Positions 16,956 through 30,363 of a stretch of 41,769 bases of DNA are shown here, in pieces (position 1 is the stretch's first letter; each line of letters starts with the position of its first letter). The notes under the pieces were generated by a model. The model ran no database searches and was not told the DNA's origin. It saw only the letters and a list, made by a program, of their open reading frames with translations. Origin of the DNA: an uncultured Treponema sp. (GTDB taxonomy: Bacteria; Spirochaetota; Spirochaetia; Treponematales; Treponemataceae); assembly GCA_947170195.1 (NCBI GenBank), contig CAMVSS010000004.1, forward strand, positions 1-41,769. Direction: 5' to 3'. The translations under genes were made by a program, and so were the position numbers.

Positions 16956-19208
16956 TTATTTCACATCCATCTTGAAAACTCCGTCCCAGTCTTTTGCAGG
17001 CGGATTGTTCTTGAAGTGGAAAATTCTGTCCAAGAATACGATTGATGGCATGTCGTTATATTTCTGAGCACAGGCTTTGAAAAATTTCTCGCTTTCATCC
17101 CACTTTTGCTTTCGGTAGAAGCTGAGACCTTTTTCGAAAAGCTCCTTGATATCATACAATTTTTCTGTTCCGCGCACCGTGGTCTGCAAAATCTCATAGA
17201 TTCTGACAGGCTCGGTTTTTCCTTTTACCGTTATGAAATCCAGCTCGCGGCAGATAAACGAATCCTTGAGCTTTGAATAAACGTTTTCCGTGATGATGGA
17301 TTTTGAGCCGTAAGCTTTGTTCGCGCTTTCAAGACGTGCGGCAAGATTGACGGTGTCGCCGATCGATGTAAAATCTTTTCTTGTGCGAGATCCGACCGAA
17401 CCGAAGACGACTTTTCCAGAGTTGATACCGATTCCGATCGAAATGAAAGTCGAGCCATCCTCGCTTGCAAGCTCCTGCTGCTCGCGCATCGCCTGACGAA
17501 TTTCCATGGCGGCTTTGCATGCATTGTATTCTTTTTTAGGGCCGGAGAAGAACGCCATCATCTCATCGCCGACAAATTTATCGATGTCGCCGCCGTTGTT
17601 CAGGATGATTTCCGTTTCGATGTCCAGATAGTGGTTAAGGATATCGACAACTTTCTTTGGCGGCATTCCCTCGCAGATCGAAGTAAAGCCGCGGATATCG
17701 GTGAACAAAAAGCAGATGTCGCGGGAAATAGTGCTGCGCTTGGTGTCTTTTTCTGCATGCTGAAGCGTTGAGAAAGAAATGTAAGGGACGATTCCCTTTA
17801 TGAGCGAGAACATGTTGTCGATTTCAACGGAAAGGTCTTTTATTTCGTCGCGGGTTTTTATTGAATCGTCATAGACAATCTCTTCCGGAACAATTTTTGC
17901 GCTACCGGAAAGCATCTCAGAAATTCCGGCGGAAGTTTTTCGGACGTTCGCACGGAGATAAATCAACGGATTTACGATTACATCCGCCATGAAGATTACG
18001 AACAGAATTGAAACATACAGAAAGATGAGGCTGAACGTGAATACGAAGACTTTTGTCTGAAAATACTGCTTCATCAACACGTCCTGCCGATATGTTACGA
18101 TTGAAAAACCTACGAGCCTGTGACCTGCTTTTCTTGACAGCGTTACAGGATAAATATATTTGCAGGTTCGGTTTGCTTTGTCATAAACAGGACTTTTTCT
18201 AAATGAACCGTTCTGATAGCGGCGGAGAAAATCGTGAGCCTGCTCGTCGGTGAGTTTTTTTTCTGATTCATCAACTTTTGAAGCTCGCGCCGTCGTGTAT
18301 GCAAATACATCAAATGCCGGAAGTTCCGATTCAGGCCCAAGATTCTCGATGAAAATCTGCTCATTTTTGCTCGAAATTATGATGTCGATTCTCTCGTATG
18401 GAGAAGCGGCGATTGCATTGGTTTTTTTCTGCTGCTCAAAATAATTTACGATTTTCTCGTATTTTCCTTCTGCTGATTCGTAGACAGCGGCGGTCTGCTC
18501 TGCCTGAGTTCTGCCGACATCACTGACAGCCTCGGTAATCATCTTTTTGTAGCCGTTAAGAATCAAAATCATGAAAGTCGTAAGAACAACGGCGAGCGTT
18601 CCGATTACAGATGCAAAAAATTTTGTCTTGATGGAAACTTTGCTTTTTTTCTGGTCATTTTCCTTGAGCACCTTGTAATCTTTGTACTCAGGCTTGGAGA
18701 CTCGCAGGTAGACGAGCGTATAAATCGACATGGCTACATGAGCTACGACCGCCCCACCAAAGATTGCATACGTGTACCACGGAACCAGCACGAACCACGT
18801 CGGGCAGTTAGCCTCAAGAATAAGACAGATTATTGATAAAACCAGATAAATCGTAAGGCTTATGAAAGTCGTTATATAAAGCGGCTTGGCAAGTTTTTCG
18901 CGTATAAAAATCGAAATCAGCGTAAAAAGTGCCGTAAACGGAATAAAATAGATAAGGAAGAAAACATATTTTAAGATTCCGTTCTCCAAAAACAAAACAT
19001 CAGTGAGGGGGAGTGAAAATGGGAAGATATACTGCACGGCAGCTTCCGCATCGTACAAATCAACCGACTGAATGCTCATCGGAATGCAGAAAAGTCCCGC
19101 CAAAAGCGCCGCGGAAAAGAATTTGCCTATACCAGGAAGAATCTTAAAAAAGAAGGCTCGCACAGAATCTAAAAAATACAAAACTCGCTGAAAAATTCCC
19201 TTAAACAT
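16956..19208 (-). CDS. Membrane-bound class III adenylate/guanylate cyclase with extracytoplasmic sensor region
   Basis: CFLFTDIRGFTSICEG...DIDKFVGDEMMAFFSGP...INSGKVVFGSVGSRTRKDFTSIGDTVNLAARLESANKA; N-terminal TM helices. Confidence 0.92.
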   Translation of the reverse strand: MFKGIFQRVLYFLDSVRAFFFKILPGIGKFFSAALLAGLFCIPMSIQSVDLYDAEAAVQYIFPFSLPLTDVLFLENGILKYVFFLIYFIPFTALFTLISIFIREKLAKPLYITTFISLTIYLVLSIICLILEANCPTWFVLVPWYTYAIFGGAVVAHVAMSIYTLVYLRVSKPEYKDYKVLKENDQKKSKVSIKTKFFASVIGTLAVVLTTFMILILNGYKKMITEAVSDVGRTQAEQTAAVYESAEGKYEKIVNYFEQQKKTNAIAASPYERIDIIISSKNEQIFIENLGPESELPAFDVFAYTTARASKVDESEKKLTDEQAHDFLRRYQNGSFRKSPVYDKANRTCKYIYPVTLSRKAGHRLVGFSIVTYRQDVLMKQYFQTKVFVFTFSLIFLYVSILFVIFMADVIVNPLIYLRANVRKTSAGISEMLSGSAKIVPEEIVYDDSIKTRDEIKDLSVEIDNMFSLIKGIVPYISFSTLQHAEKDTKRSTISRDICFLFTDIRGFTSICEGMPPKKVVDILNHYLDIETEIILNNGGDIDKFVGDEMMAFFSGPKKEYNACKAAMEIRQAMREQQELASEDGSTFISIGIGINSGKVVFGSVGSRTRKDFTSIGDTVNLAARLESANKAYGSKSIITENVYSKLKDSFICRELDFITVKGKTEPVRIYEILQTTVRGTEKLYDIKELFEKGLSFYRKQKWDESEKFFKACAQKYNDMPSIVFLDRIFHFKNNPPAKDWDGVFKMDVK

Positions 19209-19310: not shown

Positions 19311-20249
19311 CTATTTCCAAAAATCGAAGAAGTTATACCACTGAAATGGATGCATTTTGCACAAGGATTCGAGATTTCCAGCATAGTTTTTCGCAGTTCC
19401 TAAAATCCGTTCCTCGCGCTCTTTTCTTCCGCAATCAAAATTGATTCCATTCTTTTTTACGAACATGTCATACTGAGGATTGAGGCTGAAATCTTTCTGG
19501 CGCAAGCCAGTTATAAAATATGTAGGAACATTCAGAAGCGCGATCAAAAGGAATACACCATACGGAAAATTTGCTTCCTCACCGAGAAACGGAATCCTTA
19601 TGTTTCGGTCTGTATGTGCGCTGACTCTGTCACCTGCAATCACGACGACCTCACCCTTTTCAAGACGCTCCTGCATCAAAAAAATCGTTTCGGGACCGAT
19701 GTTGTCCGAGCTTACAAGATTTACGGCGGAGTCAGGGTTTATCTCGTTCAAAAGCGCGTTGAAGCCGCCCGAGATTTTGGCATCGGAAATTGTCGTGATG
19801 CTCATCTTGCGGTCGGTTCCAGATTCTCCGAGCGACGCAAGTCCCTTAAGCATCTGAGGATTTCCAAGATGGGAGATGACGATTATCGTGCCCTTTGCCT
19901 CGTTTATGTTTTTTACGAGATCGCCGACATCATCGTCCTGCCAGTGAACATTTTTGAAAGAGAAAGTGCCTGCCCAGCTCTGAATGTTTTCCACAAGATT
20001 CAGGGCAAAACTGATTATGTGCTTTGCAATTTCCAGCGAAGAAACTTTTCCGCCGTTTTTAAGATGCGAAAGATACTTTCTTGAAACGTCACGGGTCGCT
20101 TTTCCAAAAGCAAAATAGAAAAATCCGACAGGAAAAGCAAGAAAACGCATTATACGAGCCGGAAGAATTTTCATGACGGCAAAAGTCATTCTATAACCGA
20201 GGTTGTGATGCTGCTCAACTTCGTACCACTGTTCCGATTTTCTTGTCAT
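19311..20249 (-). CDS. LpxL/HtrB-like lipid acyltransferase
   Basis: 312 aa; GTIIVISHLGNPQML...KGEVVVIAGDRVSAHTDRNIRIPFLGEEANFPYG. Confidence 0.85.
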   Translation of the reverse strand: MTRKSEQWYEVEQHHNLGYRMTFAVMKILPARIMRFLAFPVGFFYFAFGKATRDVSRKYLSHLKNGGKVSSLEIAKHIISFALNLVENIQSWAGTFSFKNVHWQDDDVGDLVKNINEAKGTIIVISHLGNPQMLKGLASLGESGTDRKMSITTISDAKISGGFNALLNEINPDSAVNLVSSDNIGPETIFLMQERLEKGEVVVIAGDRVSAHTDRNIRIPFLGEEANFPYGVFLLIALLNVPTYFITGLRQKDFSLNPQYDMFVKKNGINFDCGRKEREERILGTAKNYAGNLESLCKMHPFQWYNFFDFWK

Positions 20250-20992
20250 TTATGAATTTTTCTCCATAAAAGGCACGGCGAAACAAGAATCATCTTGAAG
20301 AACATCCGCGTAAAGACCCATGAAATTCGCACGTTGTCGCGGAAAGCATGAAAATTTGAAATTCCGTCGCTCGGATAAGTAACTTTTACCGGATAGAATT
20401 CAACATCAACCCCCATCCACATAAGCTGGATGAGAATCTCCGTGTCAAATCCCATGCGTTTGTCGAACATTTTCTTTGTTACGAATTTTAGAGTCGGTTC
20501 AACCGGATAAATTCTGAAACCGCAAAGCGCATCGACGATTTTTCCACTCCATGTAACAATCGCACACCACGTATTTGCAAAAGCGTGGGCATTTTTTCTG
20601 TGCCCCGGAGCCGTTTCGTCGTATTCAGGATAACCGCAAATCATTTTATCCTGACTCGCCTTTGATTTTTCTATGAACAGCGGAATTTTTGAGCTGTCAT
20701 GCTGACCGTCAGCATCCAGCTGAAGCAAATGAGTGTAGCCCTTTTCGTGGGCAAAAATCACGCCCTGCTTGAACGCCGCACCCTTACCGGAATTTTTTGG
20801 GAGAGTGACAATCTCCACGGCAGGATGCTTTTCTTTTATTCCTCGAAGATAGGATTTTGTTTCCTCAGCGTTTCCGTCATCCACAAGAATAATTGGAACA
20901 TTGTATTGAAGAATATTGTCAACGACCTGTGCGCAGGCTTTTCCGTGACGATAAACAGGAATCAAAATGCAGGGATTAAAATTTTCGCTCAT
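20246..20992 (-). CDS. Family 2 glycosyltransferase
   Basis: CILIPVYRHGKA...IILVDDGN...LLQLDADGQHD; 4-nt overlap with the acyltransferase gene. Confidence 0.9.
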   Translation of the reverse strand: MSENFNPCILIPVYRHGKACAQVVDNILQYNVPIILVDDGNAEETKSYLRGIKEKHPAVEIVTLPKNSGKGAAFKQGVIFAHEKGYTHLLQLDADGQHDSSKIPLFIEKSKASQDKMICGYPEYDETAPGHRKNAHAFANTWCAIVTWSGKIVDALCGFRIYPVEPTLKFVTKKMFDKRMGFDTEILIQLMWMGVDVEFYPVKVTYPSDGISNFHAFRDNVRISWVFTRMFFKMILVSPCLLWRKIHK

Positions 20993-20998
20993 ACCGCA

Positions 20999-21027
20999 AT
21001 TTTACAATGAAAGCAAAAAATCAACAA
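20999..21027 (-). promoter_or_regulatory. Candidate promoter for the GT2 gene
   Basis: -35 TTGTTG (21022-21027), 17-nt spacer, -10 TAAAAT (20999-21004), 6 nt before ATG. Confidence 0.4.
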
Positions 21028-21153
21028 CAGCGGGACATCAGTTACGACATAAACTGTACTTTCGCCGACGGTACGGCAGCCCAAATCGAGATGCAGGGAT
21101 ACGCTCCGGATTATGACTACGGCCAACAGACAGAACTTTCTGAAAGAAACTGA
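21007..21153 (+). pseudogene. Remnant of Rpn/YhgA-like PD-(D/E)XK nuclease/transposase-family protein
   Basis: 48-codon fragment MKAKNQQQRDISYDINCTFADGTAAQIEMQGYAPDYDYGQQTELSERN*; D...IEMQ core followed by PDYDYG(K/Q)(R/Q)TE as in the family; remainder absent. Confidence 0.6.
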
Positions 21154-21168
21154 CCTGTCAGCAAAAAA

Positions 21169-21229
21169 GCCACCCTGCAAAGATTGTGTGTACAAAAACT
21201 CGTGCACGTTTAAGCAGGGCGGTTTTTTT
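21169..21229. terminator. Probable bidirectional terminator between the big lipoprotein gene and GT2
   Basis: CCACCCTGC (21170-21178) / GCAGGGCGG (21214-21222) flanked by A-run and T-run. Confidence 0.6.
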
Positions 21230-21259
21230 ATATGTCCGTCGCTGGGGATAATGGATTTC

Positions 21260-24200
21260 CTAGCTCCATGAACCGGTTTCCGAATTTGTATTTGGAGTCC
21301 AGGTCTTGTAGTTTGTCGTATTGTTGTTGTAATAAATTTTAACAGACATATCGGTTGCCCAGTTGACGCTCGTTGTATATCTTGCACGTTTTACACTCAC
21401 ATTCGATGTCAAATTTGAAGCAGTTCCAGCGTATATGAAAGTAACATTAGAGAAACGACTTGCGGAGTTATTCAATATTTCCAACTGTGTGACCGTTGCA
21501 GGAATGTGTATGTTCACATTGCCTGCTCCTGTATAAGTTGTACCGTCATTAGTGTAATTTAAAAGACCGTTCTCCAAATAAAGAGATGTAGCGTCCATGA
21601 AAAAGATATCTTTCAATGCAGGGCAGTTTACTATAAAGTTCGTAGTTCCAAGTCCATAAGGGTCATTTTCAGAAGTAAAACTTCCGTAAAGATATATATT
21701 TTCCAAATCTGGACAATCCTTAAATTGTTGTCCACTGACGCATTCAGATGCCTTCATAGTGACAGACTGCAGATTATTTAGCGAGTCAAATTTAACGTTG
21801 CTGTCCAAATTTGTTTTGCTGAAATCAAGATGCATCTTATAAGGTGAGTTGTTAATTGCATTCTTCACATTTCCGCTAAAGCTATAAACTTTGCCGGTAT
21901 CAACAATTACAATTTTTTCCCCGTCCGACGTAAGACTTGCTATCGTTTCAGGAAGATCATTCATTGTCGTCACAATGCCAGCCGCGATTGTTCCGTCGTC
22001 GAGGATTGTCCATTTTTTGCCGGTTGAGTCCGGGAGCAGGTCGAATTTTGCTGTGTCCGTTTTGAACTGATTATCTGAACAATTGTCGCCATGTTTAATG
22101 ATAGTGCGTCCGTCAATATATCCAATGTCGTTATATTGAGGTCTGTTATTATCCAACTTCGAAAGTGAGATTTTTCCTATCTTGCCTGTGGTAAGGATTC
22201 CATCTGTAAGAATGCTTGAAAAACTGCTTTCACTTCCAATGTAAAGGTTAATATCATTATTTTTAAAACTTCCATCTGGAATCGAAATATATCCTTTGAG
22301 AGTAATAACATTATCAGTATTACCAGTAGAAGAAACATAGTAAGATATAGCACCTCCAGATCCCCCATAGTCGGTAACGGTATTGCCTATCAATCTTGTA
22401 GGCCTTGAAGAAACGGAACTTCCAATCACAACATTTTTGTTTCCTTTAACATAAATACCACCGCCATAATATTCTGCGACATTCCCCTGAATGGTAACGC
22501 CACCAATCTCAGAATTTCCAGATTCAATTCCTATTCCGCCTCCACCCCTGCCTTTATTATAAGAAATGTTTCCGCTCGCGCATTTTAACACAGAGCCTTT
22601 ATGGCTAATGCCACCGACTGCAGGGTCACTTACATACATAGAGCCACTGTAATTATAATTATGGCAAACTCCACCAGTAAGTGTTTTTTCATGAGTCTCG
22701 CTGTCATAGCCAAGATAGCAGCTGGCATCATTAGCAATGTGTATTCCACCGCCACAAAGATCTGACCTGTTGCAAAGGTTTTCAGTGCCAGTTCTTTCAT
22801 AAATTGTAGAGGTAGAATTGCTTCCGATTAAAGCAGAACCGTACACAAAGAGTTTTGAATTTTGTCCGACATAAACACCGCCACCATAGCTATGTGCGTA
22901 ATTTCCAACAATATGAACTCCGTCTCCAAGCTTTACGGTACAATTATCTCCGATGCATATTCCGCCGCCATTTCCCGTACCAGGATATGCAGTTGAACTG
23001 TAGCCGTAGTCATCAGATTTATATCCACCGGTAATTTTGAGTTTTTCGATCGTTACCGGAGCCTTTGTCGTAATTTTTAATACACCGCCGCTGGAATAAT
23101 AGCTTTTCTCATTGTATGTTGTTTTTCCCTGCAATCCTCGGTCAATTATGTCCGTCGAAGGGCCTGTTTTACCTGTCAGTTTTATTGAAGATACCGCAGT
23201 CTCCGGAGCATTAAGATTCACAGTCCCTGCTGTTTCTATTTTACCGTCAATCGTAATCACATAATCCTGCTTGGTGTCCTGATAGTTAATAAAGGCACTC
23301 ACAGTTGCCAAATCTTTAAAATAAAAGTTTGCCAGCGAAGACGTTTCGTTAAGGCATGTTTTTCCTATACCAGGCGGGTTCCAGGTTGTATCTTTATCGA
23401 AGTTGGACGTGACTGAAAATGCGTTTTCTGCGTCAGGTTTTATATAAAGTCTGTTCGGTGTGTATTTGAGTTTGAGTTTTCCCTGATCGGTTGAAGCTGT
23501 ATTAATCTGGAATCCTCCATTATGAACGAGTGCAAATTTGCTTACATTGGAGCTCAAGGCACTTCCCGTAATCATTACGCGTTTTTTTGCAGGGTCTGTT
23601 GAAGTTACATTTATCTTCTTTGATGAATGTTTTGTTAAATTAGAATCAACCGTTATTTTTGCATTGTTGGCAAGCTGAATGATGTTTGAATATGTTTCCG
23701 GGCTTGTTCCAGAAGCCGGAATATAGGCATTTCCTCCAAGCGTACATGACGAACCAGCAGGTTGATAACTGCTATTATTAGGATTTTTTTCAACTGAACC
23801 ATCATAAAAAATTGCGTCTCCGCCCTTTGCAGCAACGTTACCTTCAATAGTTCCGCCATTCATCTTAAAAGTTGTAATTTTGGAATAAGCACCATTGTCA
23901 TAGTCGATATGACCTTTGCTTATATAAACGCCGCCACCGGTTTCCTGTGTGGTGTTTCCGGTAATCCAAACGCCGTCAGAAACAGTAAGATTAGCACCAG
24001 TGCTCAGGAAAAGCCCTGCACCGGATTTTGTTGAGTTTCCGCCTGTAATCTTAAGGTTCTTGAGCGTTATCGGAGCAGTTTCCGAATACATGCCAATCTT
24101 TAAGACTGGTTCAGAATTTCCATCAGCAAACTTTCCGTCAAAACCGTCCACAGGCCTGCCGTTTGAATCCAAACCGTTGACACCTAACACCAGAACTGAT

Positions 24201-26647
24201 TTCGCATTGTCTTCTGAACAATAAAGTTGTTGAGCACCTGTAAGGATTCCATCGACATAGACTATGTAATCTAGAGATTTGTTGTTAATTCTGTAATTAT
24301 AAGCCTGTTTAATTGATGCATAAGGACGTTTTCTTGAACCGTTACCGGTGCTGTCGCTTCCGGCGACACCGCATTTTGGGTGAATCTCCGGTCCCGCAAC
24401 ATAAAGAGGCGTCTGCATTGTCAGCGATTTGTTGTCCGAAGAAGCAATGCCTTCGTATATGGAGTTCGTAAAAGCAAAAGAATCCTGATACGGACTGATG
24501 TTCGATAATGAGCCGTAGACTTTCGCAAATTCATTTCCAACTTTCCATGCGTTACTGGTTTGGTAAAAACCGATTGTGAGATTGCTTTCAGTCGAAGGAA
24601 CACCTTCCGGAAGGGTTAAAGCACCAGCAACCTGAACAATAACTTTTTCGTTATAAAAGGTAACATCATTTTTAGCCACATTTGAAGCAGTGGTATCGAC
24701 ATACGGAATATATACCGCACCGGATATTCTAAAGGTTGCACCTTCTTTTATATAAAGAGCACCACCGCTGTTAGTACCATAAGCATAATTGGTCTGAATT
24801 CTTCCGCCTTTCATTTCCAGAGTACCGGCAGCAACATAGATTCCTCCGCCGTCGCCAGCCCCATTGCACAGCACTTTTGCGCCGTCTTCGATTGTGACAG
24901 AGCCTGATTTATTGTGAATTCCGCCACCATATTGACTTCCCCTGTTGTAGCTTACGCAGGAACCGCTTTTGAGTGTTAAAGTTCCGCCGTCATTGTAAAT
25001 TCCGCCGCCGTAACTTGCATAGTTTGCACACTCTGATGAAGAAGATCCGGAAGCATAGACGTCAGAAATGTCACCGATTAAAGTTCCTTCATCAAGAGTA
25101 ACTCTGGAGCTGCTCACCATGCTGATTGCGCCGCCATTCGAACCATTTCCGCCAGTAATCTTGAGATTTTTTATCGTGACTGGCTTTGTCGTAGAGATTT
25201 TAAGGACAGTGCCTTTCCTATTTCCTTTAAGAATGTCTGTGGAACTTCCGCTGTTGCCCTGAATCGTTATTGATTTTATCTTTGTGCTGATGGAACTTGG
25301 AAGTTCCGTAGTATTTGTACCTGTTTTGAGAGAAACTTCTCCGCTTATGTTTATCGTGTAGTCTTTTGAAGAATCGCCTGTAGCAACAATTGAACCGATG
25401 ACTTTGGAAAGAGTCTTTGCCGGTGCATAAAAAGATCCCGGATTTTCGTCGCTTCCGTTCACGCCGTCTACGTAAAAATTCGTAATAGAAGATATTGTAA
25501 TTAAGTCAGTTGAAAGCTGGAATGTTCCGTTTGCTTTGATTGCAGAAATTGAAGAAGCTGCAGGATCATACCATGTACTCGTAGTAAGTCCATCGTACAC
25601 ATTAAAAAGCTGCTCTATGCTGTAGAGAAGAGGGGTTTCAAAATTTGTAGTACCAGAAGATATAGTACCCACACTTACATTGCCGTAGAAATTTATTTTT
25701 ACGCGGTAACATCCAGAAGCAAGTTCTACTGCACTTCCGTTTGTCGCTCCAATTTTAACGCTTGTACCGCTTTTGTAAACAGTGGTTTCTTCGGTTTTAA
25801 GACCGGCCGCAGTCCATTTTGAACTGTCTCCATCAAGAAGCTGCATTGTAACTTTCGATATAGAAGTCGGAACTGTCATAGAAGGATTGAGTTTTCCTTT
25901 TTTGCCAGATGTCTGCAATGGCTTAAGTACAAGATCTGCTCTAAAAACAGCATTATCAGCCGAAAGCGCTGTCTCAACCTGAGGCGATTTGTAAATTAAT
26001 GTGTCGTCAGAATTCTTTATAGAAGATTCTACCAGCCATTTTCCGTAAGGAACCGTCATAGAGAAAGAAACATTTCCGTCGATAACAGAAAAGTTTGAAT
26101 TCGAAGCCTCGATTTTTTCGCCGGTATCAACGTTTGTCGCACATGCGTAATATGCGTAGGCCGAAAGAGTTGTTAAATCAGAAGGAACAGTCGATATTGC
26201 AGATTTTGAGATTTCTGGAACTTGGAAAGATTCGGAAGTTCTTTCTGCAGCACCTGTGCCAGAAGAAGCTGCAGAAAGTTCAGAACCAGAATCCACTATG
26301 CCAGAAGCATCCGCAGAAGTATCTTCCTTAGAGATGTTTTTAAGCGCGGCATTCAGTTTTTCTACAACCTGTGCCGGATACGCCCCCTGAGGAAGTGCAA
26401 CTGTGCCGGTAATTGTCGCATAGCCAGCAGATTCAGAATTGCCGGACGTGCCATTGTTACCGCCGGCTCTTGAAGCGAGGCTGCTTAAGAGAAGAAATTT
26501 TTTCTGGTTTTCAGAATTGTCAGAAGAATCAAACAGGTTTGAGCAGGAAGAAAATGTAAAAGAAAAGAAGGCAAGAAATAAAAGAAAGAGCGCAACTAAA
26601 GCCCGGCGACCAGCTCCTTTGACAGAAGAACGGGGGTTAAAATCCAT
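21260..26647 (-). CDS. Very large surface lipoprotein with repeated beta-helix (PMP-like) modules and C-terminal BspA-like/LRR_5-type region
   Basis: Lipobox FTFSSCSN; repeated GGGI/GGGIY/GGAI motifs and three (P)(V/I)T(I/L)(K/E)(N/K)LKITGG repeats; C-terminal LRR-like segments. Start taken at MDFNPRSS (preceded by GGGGGG); 26704 and 26764 are alternatives. Confidence 0.82.
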   Translation of the reverse strand: MDFNPRSSVKGAGRRALVALFLLFLAFFSFTFSSCSNLFDSSDNSENQKKFLLLSSLASRAGGNNGTSGNSESAGYATITGTVALPQGAYPAQVVEKLNAALKNISKEDTSADASGIVDSGSELSAASSGTGAAERTSESFQVPEISKSAISTVPSDLTTLSAYAYYACATNVDTGEKIEASNSNFSVIDGNVSFSMTVPYGKWLVESSIKNSDDTLIYKSPQVETALSADNAVFRADLVLKPLQTSGKKGKLNPSMTVPTSISKVTMQLLDGDSSKWTAAGLKTEETTVYKSGTSVKIGATNGSAVELASGCYRVKINFYGNVSVGTISSGTTNFETPLLYSIEQLFNVYDGLTTSTWYDPAASSISAIKANGTFQLSTDLITISSITNFYVDGVNGSDENPGSFYAPAKTLSKVIGSIVATGDSSKDYTINISGEVSLKTGTNTTELPSSISTKIKSITIQGNSGSSTDILKGNRKGTVLKISTTKPVTIKNLKITGGNGSNGGAISMVSSSRVTLDEGTLIGDISDVYASGSSSSECANYASYGGGIYNDGGTLTLKSGSCVSYNRGSQYGGGIHNKSGSVTIEDGAKVLCNGAGDGGGIYVAAGTLEMKGGRIQTNYAYGTNSGGALYIKEGATFRISGAVYIPYVDTTASNVAKNDVTFYNEKVIVQVAGALTLPEGVPSTESNLTIGFYQTSNAWKVGNEFAKVYGSLSNISPYQDSFAFTNSIYEGIASSDNKSLTMQTPLYVAGPEIHPKCGVAGSDSTGNGSRKRPYASIKQAYNYRINNKSLDYIVYVDGILTGAQQLYCSEDNAKSVLVLGVNGLDSNGRPVDGFDGKFADGNSEPVLKIGMYSETAPITLKNLKITGGNSTKSGAGLFLSTGANLTVSDGVWITGNTTQETGGGVYISKGHIDYDNGAYSKITTFKMNGGTIEGNVAAKGGDAIFYDGSVEKNPNNSSYQPAGSSCTLGGNAYIPASGTSPETYSNIIQLANNAKITVDSNLTKHSSKKINVTSTDPAKKRVMITGSALSSNVSKFALVHNGGFQINTASTDQGKLKLKYTPNRLYIKPDAENAFSVTSNFDKDTTWNPPGIGKTCLNETSSLANFYFKDLATVSAFINYQDTKQDYVITIDGKIETAGTVNLNAPETAVSSIKLTGKTGPSTDIIDRGLQGKTTYNEKSYYSSGGVLKITTKAPVTIEKLKITGGYKSDDYGYSSTAYPGTGNGGGICIGDNCTVKLGDGVHIVGNYAHSYGGGVYVGQNSKLFVYGSALIGSNSTSTIYERTGTENLCNRSDLCGGGIHIANDASCYLGYDSETHEKTLTGGVCHNYNYSGSMYVSDPAVGGISHKGSVLKCASGNISYNKGRGGGGIGIESGNSEIGGVTIQGNVAEYYGGGIYVKGNKNVVIGSSVSSRPTRLIGNTVTDYGGSGGAISYYVSSTGNTDNVITLKGYISIPDGSFKNNDINLYIGSESSFSSILTDGILTTGKIGKISLSKLDNNRPQYNDIGYIDGRTIIKHGDNCSDNQFKTDTAKFDLLPDSTGKKWTILDDGTIAAGIVTTMNDLPETIASLTSDGEKIVIVDTGKVYSFSGNVKNAINNSPYKMHLDFSKTNLDSNVKFDSLNNLQSVTMKASECVSGQQFKDCPDLENIYLYGSFTSENDPYGLGTTNFIVNCPALKDIFFMDATSLYLENGLLNYTNDGTTYTGAGNVNIHIPATVTQLEILNNSASRFSNVTFIYAGTASNLTSNVSVKRARYTTSVNWATDMSVKIYYNNNTTNYKTWTPNTNSETGSWS

Positions 26648-26803
26648 CTGAAGCCCCCCCCTATACAGACATATAGCCTTATTAAAGATAAAACTTTTTT
26701 TCATAGTATTCTCCGTCCTCCTTCCCGAAAATGCTCCAACATATATTATATCACCATCTATCAAGTTTTTCAGAAAATTTTAAGGGAATTACAGGCTGTA
26801 AGT

Positions 26804-27931
26804 TTAGTTGGCGGAGCGAACCACGCGGAAACCAACATCCAAGTAATAGATATCTGGTACACTTTGAAATCTGCGGGAAACAGACGACAGGGAAGCGTCT
26901 TCGCCCCAACTGCCGCCACGTGCAACTCGCTCATCACCGGATAAAGAACCAACTGGATCCGTTACAGCATCCGTTTCGTCGATGTCGCCGTATATGTCAT
27001 AGCACCATTCCCAGACGTTGCCGCTCATGTCGTAAAGTCCAAGAGCATTTGCGGTCTTTTTACCAACTTCGTGGGTACTATAACCGGCAGTTCCACTTGA
27101 AAGGGCTGTAGCAGAACTGGTACCACCAAGATTATATTTATACCAGCCGACCAGATCCAAACCGGTATTTATCTGGGCTGTATAGCTTGTTCCTTCTGCT
27201 GTGTCTGCACCACTGAATACGTAGTTCCACGCTTCGGCTGAAGAGGTCCCGCCACGGGCAGCAAATTCCCATTCGGCTTCCGTTGGCAGACGATAGCCGT
27301 CTGCATTTGCAACAGGAGTAACAGCTGCTTCCCAAATATGTCCGTCAGAATCTACTTCCGTAATTTCAATTGTATATGCTTTTGTAAAACCAAGTTTTTC
27401 GCTCAAAGCGTTGCAGAAATATACTGCGTCATACCATGTTACGCTTTCCACAGGGCGGAGGGACGAAGTTTCCCCAACCGCTATTACATAGTCTGAATTA
27501 TCATTGCGGCACTCAGAAGGAGTTGCGGCAAGAGTATATTCTGTCCCTCTGACAGTCACAGTCTGATTCGACATCACAGCTTCGTAAAGTTCCTGCGTTA
27601 CCTCATATTTTCCCATAATAAACGGAGAAAGGGTAACGTTTCTTCCGTCAGAAAAAACACCCTCATAATTGTCAGTGTACGTATTTCCACTTATTGCGGC
27701 AGCGCTCTCACTTGCATACAGTTCGCTTGTCTTTTCAAAAGTTACGCCGCCTATGGCAATAGCTTCTTTTGGCGTCCTGTCGGCTGACTGTGCACCACTT
27801 CCATTTCCTTGTGCAAGAAGAAATACGTAATTTTTGCTGTCACTTTTATTAAAACTGCACGCTGTAAAAAGTGAAATAAACACAGCAGTAAATAAAACTG
27901 CCGCTCCTTTTGATGTTCTAACTCTCTCCAT
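26804..27931 (-). CDS. SUMF1/FGE-sulfatase (C-type-lectin-fold) domain lipoprotein
   Basis: Lipobox LFTACSF; MGKYEVTQELYEAVM, PVESVTWYDAVYFCNALSEKLG, YRLPTEAEWEFAARGG, GLYDMSGNVWEWCYD, VARGGSWGEDASLSSVSRRF...GFRVVRS. Confidence 0.92.
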   Translation of the reverse strand: MERVRTSKGAAVLFTAVFISLFTACSFNKSDSKNYVFLLAQGNGSGAQSADRTPKEAIAIGGVTFEKTSELYASESAAAISGNTYTDNYEGVFSDGRNVTLSPFIMGKYEVTQELYEAVMSNQTVTVRGTEYTLAATPSECRNDNSDYVIAVGETSSLRPVESVTWYDAVYFCNALSEKLGFTKAYTIEITEVDSDGHIWEAAVTPVANADGYRLPTEAEWEFAARGGTSSAEAWNYVFSGADTAEGTSYTAQINTGLDLVGWYKYNLGGTSSATALSSGTAGYSTHEVGKKTANALGLYDMSGNVWEWCYDIYGDIDETDAVTDPVGSLSGDERVARGGSWGEDASLSSVSRRFQSVPDIYYLDVGFRVVRSAN

Positions 27932-27969
27932 TTTCCCTTTTTCCTTTTCAAAAAGATTTTCCCGACGGT

Positions 27970-27998
27970 ATTATAGCAATTAAATCTTTATGCTGTAA
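27970..27998 (-). promoter_or_regulatory. Sigma70-like promoter for the SUMF1-like lipoprotein
   Basis: -35 TTACAG (27993-27998), 17-nt spacer, -10 TATAAT (27970-27975); overlaps the 3' end of the dehydratase CDS. Confidence 0.65.
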
Positions 27999-28333
27999 CT
28001 TCCGCTGGCATAAGACTTTCCATCGCCAGCATCAGAAATCTTAAAAGTGACTTTACCCTTTTCTGCATCAAAATCCAGCGAGAAAAGCACCGTTGAATCA
28101 GGCAGAATTTTATCGCTGAATTTAAAACGCTTAATGCTCGGAGTAGAAACAGCAACTCCAAAATATTTCTGAGCATAATGGGCAAGTAAATCTATCTGAG
28201 CTACGGCTGGCAAAAGCTTAAACTGCGGAAAGTGCCCGTCAAAATAATCGCTTGTGGCAGGAATTTTTACTCTGACCTGAACTGAGGATTCTGTCTTTTC
28301 AACAACTTCTTCTTCTGGAATTCCGTGAATCAA
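27980..28333 (-). CDS. 3-hydroxyacyl-ACP dehydratase, hotdog fold (ApeI-like)
   Basis: VRVKIPATSDYFDGHFPQFKLLPAVAQIDLLAHYAQK. Confidence 0.85.
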   Translation of the reverse strand: MIHGIPEEEVVEKTESSVQVRVKIPATSDYFDGHFPQFKLLPAVAQIDLLAHYAQKYFGVAVSTPSIKRFKFSDKILPDSTVLFSLDFDAEKGKVTFKISDAGDGKSYASGSYSIKI

Positions 28334-28335
28334 TT

Positions 28336-30363
28336 TTATTCTCCGTCGCTGTTTTCAAAAAGTGCCTGAATCTCCGGCTTATGCTTTTTTCCCTGCACGT
28401 CAGTCGGGAGTTTTTCAAGATAACGCCATTTTTTCGGAAGAACTACATTCTCGAAGAACTGCAAGAGATAGTCGTGGAAGTGACGGTTAATCAGATATTT
28501 TTCCGTACCTTCAAACTTCTTTTTTCCTTCGGCATTCAAGACAATCGCCGCCGCAAGATACTGTCTTCGGTCTTGCATTGGAACGACCGAGCAGTCAAGG
28601 ACAAGTCCGCTCTGTAGCAGGCGGTTCTCGACTTCAGTAACGGAAATGCGCTTTTCTTCGATTTTGACGATTGAATCAGCGCGGCCTTTTAGAAGGAAAG
28701 TGCCATCTTCGTACATTTCGGCAAGATCGCCTGTCTTAAAACCGGCTGGATCTTTGATATACGGGGAAATAATCGTGAGGCAGCCGTCGTCCTTGTCGAG
28801 CCAGATTTTTGCGTTGTCGAACGGAGTCCAGATAAGGCCTTTTTTTGTCTGCTGGCGGTAAGCGATGCCGGAAGTTTCGGTTGAGCCGTACACTTCAAGC
28901 GGACAGAAGCCGAAAACGCGCTCCGTGTCTTTTGCAAGCTCCGGTGAGACAGCCCCACCCGACGTGAAAATCCACGGATTTTTGAGAGGAAGCTTTTTTT
29001 CGCCCATCTCGGCACAAGTTCTCTTTAAGAAAGCCGGAACTGCAATGATTATGTATGATTCGTCGTCCAGAGCCTCAAATTCCTCAGGAAATTCAATTCG
29101 CTTTCGGCGGAACGGAACGCCCGCAGCAAACGGAAGCGAAATCGTGAACAAAAAGCCGTAGATGTGGTGCTGGGAATTGACCGCGCACAGCTTTCGTGAG
29201 GCAAATTCATCGTACCATTTTGAAAGAATAAAAGCGTTGTCCAGCTCAAACTCGGTCATTCGCTGATGAACGGCTTTCGGATGGCCTGTCGAGCCTGATG
29301 TATACAGGATGATTTTTGTCTCGTCGGAAACAATCTGCGGAGTCTCCATTTTTTCGCTCTCGCCAGGCTCAGCTTCGTCTTCGAGCACTTTCGGAATAAA
29401 GAAAGCGTCTTCGATCTTTTTGCCCTCGACTTCGGTCTGGTCTGTCAGGAAGAGAGTTGTGGTTCCTGCTCCAGTTTTCATTTCCTCAATAAACTTAGGG
29501 CTGATGTTTGCGGTGAGCAGGACTTCTTTTTTGCACTGCAAGAGCGCGACGAATGTGCACAAAAAGTGCCAGTAATCTTCACAATGGAGAATCCACTTTT
29601 CGCAATCGCCGTGGCTTTTGATAAAGCGGCGCATTTTCGCGCTTTCGGTAAGGAAATCGCTCCATGTAAGGTATTTTTTATCGCTCCATTTATGCTCGTA
29701 GCACATGATTTTATCGAGCGGCCATGATTTTGAATCGAATTTTGTGATGTAAGCTAATTTCGGCATTTTTGAATTTACAACCTTCCTTACGATAAACTCC
29801 ACGGAAAAAAGAACGCTCATAAGGGCGTAGGAAATTCCGCCGTTGTAGATTGACCATATTTTATCACTTTTCCAAAAAACTGTGTATAAAGCCGCGCTGC
29901 CATTCAGCACAAAAAAAACACACCATATCAGGGTAACCCCGAAGCAATAGCGTTCGACCCTGCGGGCTATGTGCGACTTCGAAAGGTTTTTGTCGGTAAG
30001 ATTTGCAAGACGGAAGCAGAGGTTCGGCGGAAAGAGCAAGGTCGAGCCAAACGTAAAGAGAAAGATCAGGTTCATCAGGACCGGATACAGCTTGATAAAG
30101 AAGATTTTGCCCGTGGCGAGACAGACGAGGGCCGCAAAAAGCATCAGTGCCGCGCTGACCAAAAGCCTAATGTTTTTTTTGAGCCGCGAAGAAAGGGAAT
30201 CCGAGCCGCCACCGGTAGCAACAAGAACATACACCAGCGCAATAAAAACGATGAACAGAGAGAAGACTTTTATCGGCACGTTAAAAATCACCAGGCAAGT
30301 GAACACCGCAACCGGATAGACGACAGAAAGTATAATAAAAAACAATTTAGAAAAAATGCTCAT
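28336..30363 (-). CDS. Fusion of an N-terminal membrane domain (COG4648-like) and an AMP-dependent acyl synthetase (ApeG/ApeH-like)
   Basis: N-terminal ~215 aa with several TM helices; then ILYTSGSTGHPKAVHQRM...EVYGSTETSGIAYRQ...FKTGDLAEMYEDGTFLLKGRADSIVKIEEKRI. Confidence 0.85.
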   Translation of the reverse strand: MSIFSKLFFIILSVVYPVAVFTCLVIFNVPIKVFSLFIVFIALVYVLVATGGGSDSLSSRLKKNIRLLVSAALMLFAALVCLATGKIFFIKLYPVLMNLIFLFTFGSTLLFPPNLCFRLANLTDKNLSKSHIARRVERYCFGVTLIWCVFFVLNGSAALYTVFWKSDKIWSIYNGGISYALMSVLFSVEFIVRKVVNSKMPKLAYITKFDSKSWPLDKIMCYEHKWSDKKYLTWSDFLTESAKMRRFIKSHGDCEKWILHCEDYWHFLCTFVALLQCKKEVLLTANISPKFIEEMKTGAGTTTLFLTDQTEVEGKKIEDAFFIPKVLEDEAEPGESEKMETPQIVSDETKIILYTSGSTGHPKAVHQRMTEFELDNAFILSKWYDEFASRKLCAVNSQHHIYGFLFTISLPFAAGVPFRRKRIEFPEEFEALDDESYIIIAVPAFLKRTCAEMGEKKLPLKNPWIFTSGGAVSPELAKDTERVFGFCPLEVYGSTETSGIAYRQQTKKGLIWTPFDNAKIWLDKDDGCLTIISPYIKDPAGFKTGDLAEMYEDGTFLLKGRADSIVKIEEKRISVTEVENRLLQSGLVLDCSVVPMQDRRQYLAAAIVLNAEGKKKFEGTEKYLINRHFHDYLLQFFENVVLPKKWRYLEKLPTDVQGKKHKPEIQALFENSDGE

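Follow-up and report, generated by a model that had tools for sequence, protein, structure and literature searches.

An approximately 7 kbp block of surface-lipoprotein genes that splits an aryl-polyene-like gene cluster in an uncultured gut Treponema is probably a lineage-specific insertion, in which two independently transcribed surface-lipoprotein genes entered an operon at a junction where, ancestrally, the neighbouring genes were closely packed and coupled in translation. The two flanking genes are ancestrally adjacent, the block is unique among the genomes sampled, and the identities of its two genes and of a nuclease-gene remnant at one end are established. The block lies in a 41,769-nucleotide stretch of DNA (contig CAMVSS010000004.1; referred to here as the window) belonging to a draft assembly (G000) of 263 contigs that is about 80% complete. 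One close relative, with 81% identity in the GT2 glycosyltransferase, is a goat omasum MAG, and the setting is that of gut Treponema.

Position and composition of the block

The block occupies exactly positions 20993-27979 on the minus strand, confirming the preliminary description, and is precisely the space from the dehydratase stop codon to the GT2 start codon. Read along the minus strand, the genes are an AMP-ligase (28336-30363, the upstream neighbour of the dehydratase), an ApeI-like dehydratase (27980-28333; PF22818, 5.9e-11), an FGE/SUMF1-domain lipoprotein, a lipoprotein of 1834 codons, the GT2 glycosyltransferase (20246-20992; PF00535) and an LpxL-like acyltransferase. The junction sequences place the dehydratase at the left flank of the insertion and GT2 at the right flank, with its start codon at the junction itself. 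Two large lipoprotein genes had been described within the block; both do encode lipoproteins, but only one is large (1834 versus 375 codons).

The third-position GC contents of the block genes are 0.35 and 0.37, compared with 0.45-0.49 in their paralogues in the same genome. Most genes of the cluster are at 0.45-0.56, the exceptions being the dehydratase (0.34) and an ACP (0.40). The low values hint that the block genes may have an outside origin.

The dehydratase-GT2 junction in the genus

In a comparison of the junction across 200 genomes of the genus, we detected the dehydratase in 135 and GT2 in 132; the two are collinear on one contig in 121, in 107 of which they are adjacent (no more than 300 nt apart). 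A stop/start overlap of 4 nt is common, such as the ATGA found in L056, L057, L061 and L068-L070. The window gap of 6,990 nt is the largest among the collinear genomes, and all of the six nearest by GT2 identity that carry the pair on one contig (G144, G051, G022, G118, G149 and G020; 74-81%) are uninterrupted. The lipoprotein genes of the block are absent from this junction in all of the relatives sampled.

Two readings of the block had been proposed, either as a cargo module dropped into the cluster or as surface proteins deliberately tied to it. The presence/absence comparison across Treponema genomes supports the first of these, as the block is present here and in no sampled relative, the distant ones included, the nearest relatives have the dehydratase stop and GT2 start adjacent or overlapping, and both lipoprotein families are dispersed elsewhere in the genomes. 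The notion of a deliberate tie finds no support, as the two lipoproteins are missing from the junction in every relative; and the block is not conserved in homologous clusters, as a component of an aryl-polyene cluster would be.

Ten other genomes have gaps of 0.5-2.0 kb at the junction, and all belong to the clade of the window, with membership set by a GT2 identity of 56% or more. Those gaps that were inspected contain different genes from those of the block: a lipoprotein and a second exported protein in G036; a small membrane protein and a gene on the opposite strand in G041, G119 and G146; a SPOR-like protein (judged by eye) in G219 and G153; and a zinc-ribbon protein in G125. In G038 (L058 and L164) the halves of the cluster are on separate contigs, the ligase and dehydratase on one, and GT2 and LpxL near rplM-rpsI-like genes on the other. 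The ancestral adjacency, the uniqueness of the block and the different genes in the other gaps together argue that the block is a derived, lineage-specific insertion and not a part of the pathway. Within one clade, then, the junction has been broken repeatedly, and the block represents one derived event.

Two further features of the cluster were observed. An adenylate/guanylate cyclase gene (16956-19208 in the window) separates the LpxL-like gene from the thioesterase gene and is absent from that place in G020 and G036, where these genes directly adjoin; it represents a second interruption of the cluster that is specific to the lineage. The AMP-ligase and ApeI-like dehydratase are fused in one frame of approximately 755-794 aa in L060, L061, L062, L153, L154 and L155, which represent several species.

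Junction sequences, promoter-like sites and terminator

In G051 the junction reads ...TACAATTTATGACCGATTTC, in which the stop and start codons share ATGA. In the window, a new stop closes the dehydratase, which continues as TACAGCATAAAGATTTAA and whose last codons differ from those of its relatives, and GT2, beginning TTGCGGTATGAGC, is not preceded by a good ribosome-binding site. Judged from these sequences, coupled translation of GT2 is lost in the window. GT2 and LpxL are both whole and 70-81% identical to their G051 counterparts, and they therefore still appear to be in use.

The block was thought to begin with a strong promoter of its own, and a TTACAG-17-TATAAT site with an extended -10 (TGCTATAAT) does indeed straddle the dehydratase 3' end and the insert (27970-27998, minus strand), with the -35 hexamer at 27993-27998 in the last dehydratase codons and the -10 hexamer at 27970-27975. 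This site ties for the best match in a scan (10 of 12). Promoter-like sites in the region show no excess over shuffled sequence (18 found, 19.2 expected), and it is therefore only the position of the TTACAG site that argues for it. The second lipoprotein gene is preceded by a promoter-like CTGAAA-17-TATAAT, also with an extended -10 (TGATATAAT; 26745-26773, minus strand) and a score of 10 of 12. The bidirectional terminator reported at the end of the block (21162-21229) is of the intrinsic type and folds better than shuffled sequences on both strands, with z values of -4.19 on the plus strand and -2.38 on the minus strand. The lipoprotein genes would be transcribed from their own promoters, with transcripts ending at this terminator, and GT2 would consequently rely on read-through or on a promoter of its own. 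A 23-nt inverted repeat formed by a terminator arm and the GT2 gene was also considered and rejected, as about what would be expected by chance in a sequence of this length.

A TvpA-type lipoprotein

The 375-aa lipoprotein (26804-27931, minus strand) has an FGE/SUMF1 domain (PF03781, E 2.5e-43) and a signal peptide that ends ...FISLFTAC. The best PDB chain is 2y3c, the TvpA protein of Treponema denticola (E 2.7e-37, compared with only about 1e-12 for the formylglycine enzymes). TvpA, itself a lipoprotein, is targeted by a diversity-generating retroelement (DGR), and DGR targets are dispersed FGE-domain genes (PMC4891356). The window protein is homologous to TvpA in its FGE/C-type-lectin fold, and it shares with TvpA and other DGR targets the lipoprotein signal, the presence of several dispersed paralogues per genome and the C-terminal layout RVxRGGSW...GFRVVRS. 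Unlike those systems, neither a reverse transcriptase (PF00078) nor a template-like copy of the C-terminal DNA was found in the assembly, which is about 80% complete and may therefore be missing a DGR locus. Control of the window gene by a DGR, for which both of these components were sought, was thus set aside.

Two paralogues, on contigs C12 and C200 and both out of frame (see below), differ at 12 of their last 27 codons; there is no silent change in the other 15 (P about 0.035), and the changes cluster where they would be expected, in the C-terminal region. Several silent differences are present in the window copy. As a sign of adenine-directed variation this pattern is suggestive only. We also observed that a TvpA-like gene in G003 has, at its 3' end (L133:2269-2289), the 21 bases GGCTTCCGCGTGGTTCGCTCC, which are identical to those in the C200 paralogue even though the proteins themselves are distant; a shared retroelement template or transfer is possible.

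A putative beta-helix lipoprotein

The large lipoprotein (21260-26704, minus strand, within a frame open from 26764) is predicted to form a right-handed beta-helix. The ATG at 26702-26704, which follows GGAG, is the likely start codon, and the leader it opens is conserved in the paralogue on contig C2; an alternative in-frame ATG is at 26645-26647. The lipobox is ...FTFSSC, with its cysteine codon at 26543-26545. The protein contains 12 GG[GAS]I motifs, compared with 0.47 in shuffled sequences, and residues 436-760 are modelled as a beta-solenoid, for the most part confidently (pLDDT 82, pTM 0.87). The top PDB folds are those of right-handed beta-helix proteins, with weak E values, none of which is below 0.001.

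Surface proteins of the chlamydial Pmp type contain GGA[ILV] repeats and adopt a right-handed beta-helix. The large lipoprotein has repeated GG[GA]I motifs and a predicted beta-helix in common with these. It differs from them in having no match to the Pmp family profile, or to any Pfam family even at E 10, and in its predicted lipoprotein anchor; we found an N-terminal lipobox and no barrel family of the kind that forms the C-terminal autotransporter barrel. Its closest relatives are in the same genome, with 48-54% identity over the N-terminal third, and an E value of 1e-45 is reached in only 4 of 195 other genomes of the genus, at 34-43% identity.

Poly-G tracts in lipoprotein leaders

Following its ATG, the large lipoprotein gene contains the leader CTGTATA-GGGGGGGG-CTT, which is read in the frame of the signal peptide. 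Within this leader, a tract of eight G residues (26654-26661, minus strand) is a candidate for phase variation; at its current length the frame remains open. The gene shares the leader motif CTGTATAGG-(G)n with three dispersed paralogues in the same genome, such that the four genes represent two unrelated lipoprotein families, and two of them are out of frame. The C2 paralogue has CTGTATAGGC-G8 and is in frame, and the TvpA-like paralogues on C200 (CTGTATAGGA-G7) and C12 (CTGTATAGGGA-G6) are those that are out of frame, with leaders that give a 14-residue product and a downstream lipoprotein frame that is intact. The window's own TvpA-like gene lacks a G tract. In other species, tracts inside lipoprotein signal peptides are out of frame in G038 (G12) and G041 (G10), and in frame in G020 (G10) and in G004 (G8), the last of these in a relative of the large lipoprotein.

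Tract length thus sets the reading frame in these genes, as would be expected of a contingency locus, and the tracts look like sites of slipped-strand phase variation. In the window gene the G8 could shift the signal-peptide frame via slipped-strand mispairing, tempered by the second in-frame ATG downstream of the tract, as a result of which slippage might tune rather than abolish expression. No tract of at least seven G residues was found in a lipoprotein leader among 40 stretches of this genome sampled without regard to lipoproteins, suggesting that the tract is confined to a subset of genes; a genome-wide link between poly-G tracts and lipoproteins was therefore not supported.

Poly-G tracts are present in the promoters of the phase-variable tprE, tprG, tprJ and tprL genes and tp0126 of T. 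pallidum (PMC7864442). Those tracts and the ones described here have in common a length of approximately 8-12 G residues and a location at the 5' ends of surface-protein genes, but the T. pallidum tracts lie in the promoter whereas those here are part of the translated sequence, in the leader or signal peptide, where they would operate through the reading frame. A search of the open-access literature, a body without most subscription journals, for rumen Treponema and phase variation gave a mycoplasma match only.

Two observations on individual tracts are worth recording. In L062 (G041) a 577-codon lipoprotein frame, on the opposite strand right after the LpxL-like gene, is shifted out of frame by a G10 tract immediately before the lipobox. 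In L206, near the start of contig C8 of the window's own genome, the minus strand has a run of 20 G residues (19876-19895) a few bases after TTGACA, which could be either a tpr-like poly-G promoter or a contig-end poly-G sequencing artefact.

The nuclease remnant and a possible mechanism of insertion

The nuclease/transposase remnant noted at the end of the block is real, and is a 48-aa fragment of a PD-(D/E)XK nuclease-family gene, a PDDEXK_2-type 'transposase' (21007-21150, with the stop to 21153, plus strand). An intact 354-codon copy is present on contig C38 of the same genome, to which the remnant has 81% amino acid identity over 37 aa and 88% DNA identity over 96 nt. A 132-codon minus-strand frame at 20989-21387 was dismissed as noise opposite the remnant and the terminator. 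We found no flanking direct repeats, terminal inverted repeats or target-site duplication around the block, nor does the remnant by itself show transposon movement.

A PD-(D/E)XK gene or remnant is located beside three of the large-lipoprotein loci in this genome; those on contigs C184 (L021) and C93 (L025) each adjoin a PD-(D/E)XK 'transposase' gene. A P value of 1e-6 was set aside, as two of the three loci behind it had been chosen for being paralogues. In other species only one of 30 loci fetched for the large-lipoprotein family has such a neighbour, and the link is therefore weak.

The Rpn nucleases of E. coli promote RecA-independent recombination or joining (PMC5350276). The remnant spans part of the nuclease core, of PDDEXK_2 type, that it shares with these PD-(D/E)XK enzymes, but it is only 48 codons long and belongs to Pfam family PF12784 rather than PF04754. 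Illegitimate recombination is the simplest account of the insertion; the genes may have been moved in by this route, perhaps aided by a PD-(D/E)XK (Rpn-like) nuclease, the remnant of which would mark one end of the inserted DNA.

Alternative explanations

The remnant at one end of the block, together with the nuclease genes that neighbour the C184 and C93 loci, could suggest that a classical transposon, phage or plasmid carried the block. This is unlikely, as the block has no terminal repeats or duplications, no match in plasmid and phage collections and no intact mobility gene, such that it fits neither a transposon nor a genomic island, and the neighbouring nuclease gene is rare at the family's loci in other species. 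It is also quite improbable that selection keeps the lipoproteins in the polyene cluster as its functional partners, for example as lipid anchors or binders. They are on the same strand and inside the cluster, and some of the interruptions in the same clade resemble envelope or exported proteins, but no cluster-bearing relative keeps them there, both families are found elsewhere in many genomes, including some with no detected dehydratase, and each gene has its own promoter-like site, with a terminator ending the block.

An assembly chimera, in which the cluster flanks are joined to an unrelated repeat-rich lipoprotein contig, must be considered for so fragmented a draft, in which lipoprotein paralogues exist and the start of contig C93 (L025:1-49) is untrimmed Illumina adapter. 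We regard it as very unlikely, since each junction is no more than a few bases from the ancestral stop/start overlap and the flanking genes are whole, so that two chance joins at the same 4-nt spot would be needed, and a search for near-identical paralogues that might have mediated a join found none (long DNA matches are approximately 75%). That the block is the ancestral state, deleted in relatives, is favoured by the interrupted junctions seen elsewhere in the clade; the inspected interruptions contain different genes, and many separate deletions would be needed, each restoring the tight junction, making this a highly implausible history.

Implications

With insertion as the preferred reading, the cargo would be drawn from a repertoire for surface variation, comprising a TvpA-type C-type-lectin lipoprotein and a beta-helix lipoprotein. 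More tentatively, and with rather less confidence than in the insertion itself, we suggest that gut Treponema may carry a dispersed set of surface lipoproteins of unrelated families behind a common poly-G signal-peptide leader (MK...LYR-GG) that acts as an on/off switch shuffled between genes, with blocks of such genes, along with diversified lipoproteins of the TvpA type, inserted into housekeeping or biosynthetic operons with the assistance of PD-(D/E)XK nucleases. The block itself shows that, in one clade, variable surface genes can settle in a conserved and tightly coupled envelope-lipid operon, and the poly-G tracts in lipoprotein signal peptides represent a candidate phase-variation system in commensal gut Treponema.
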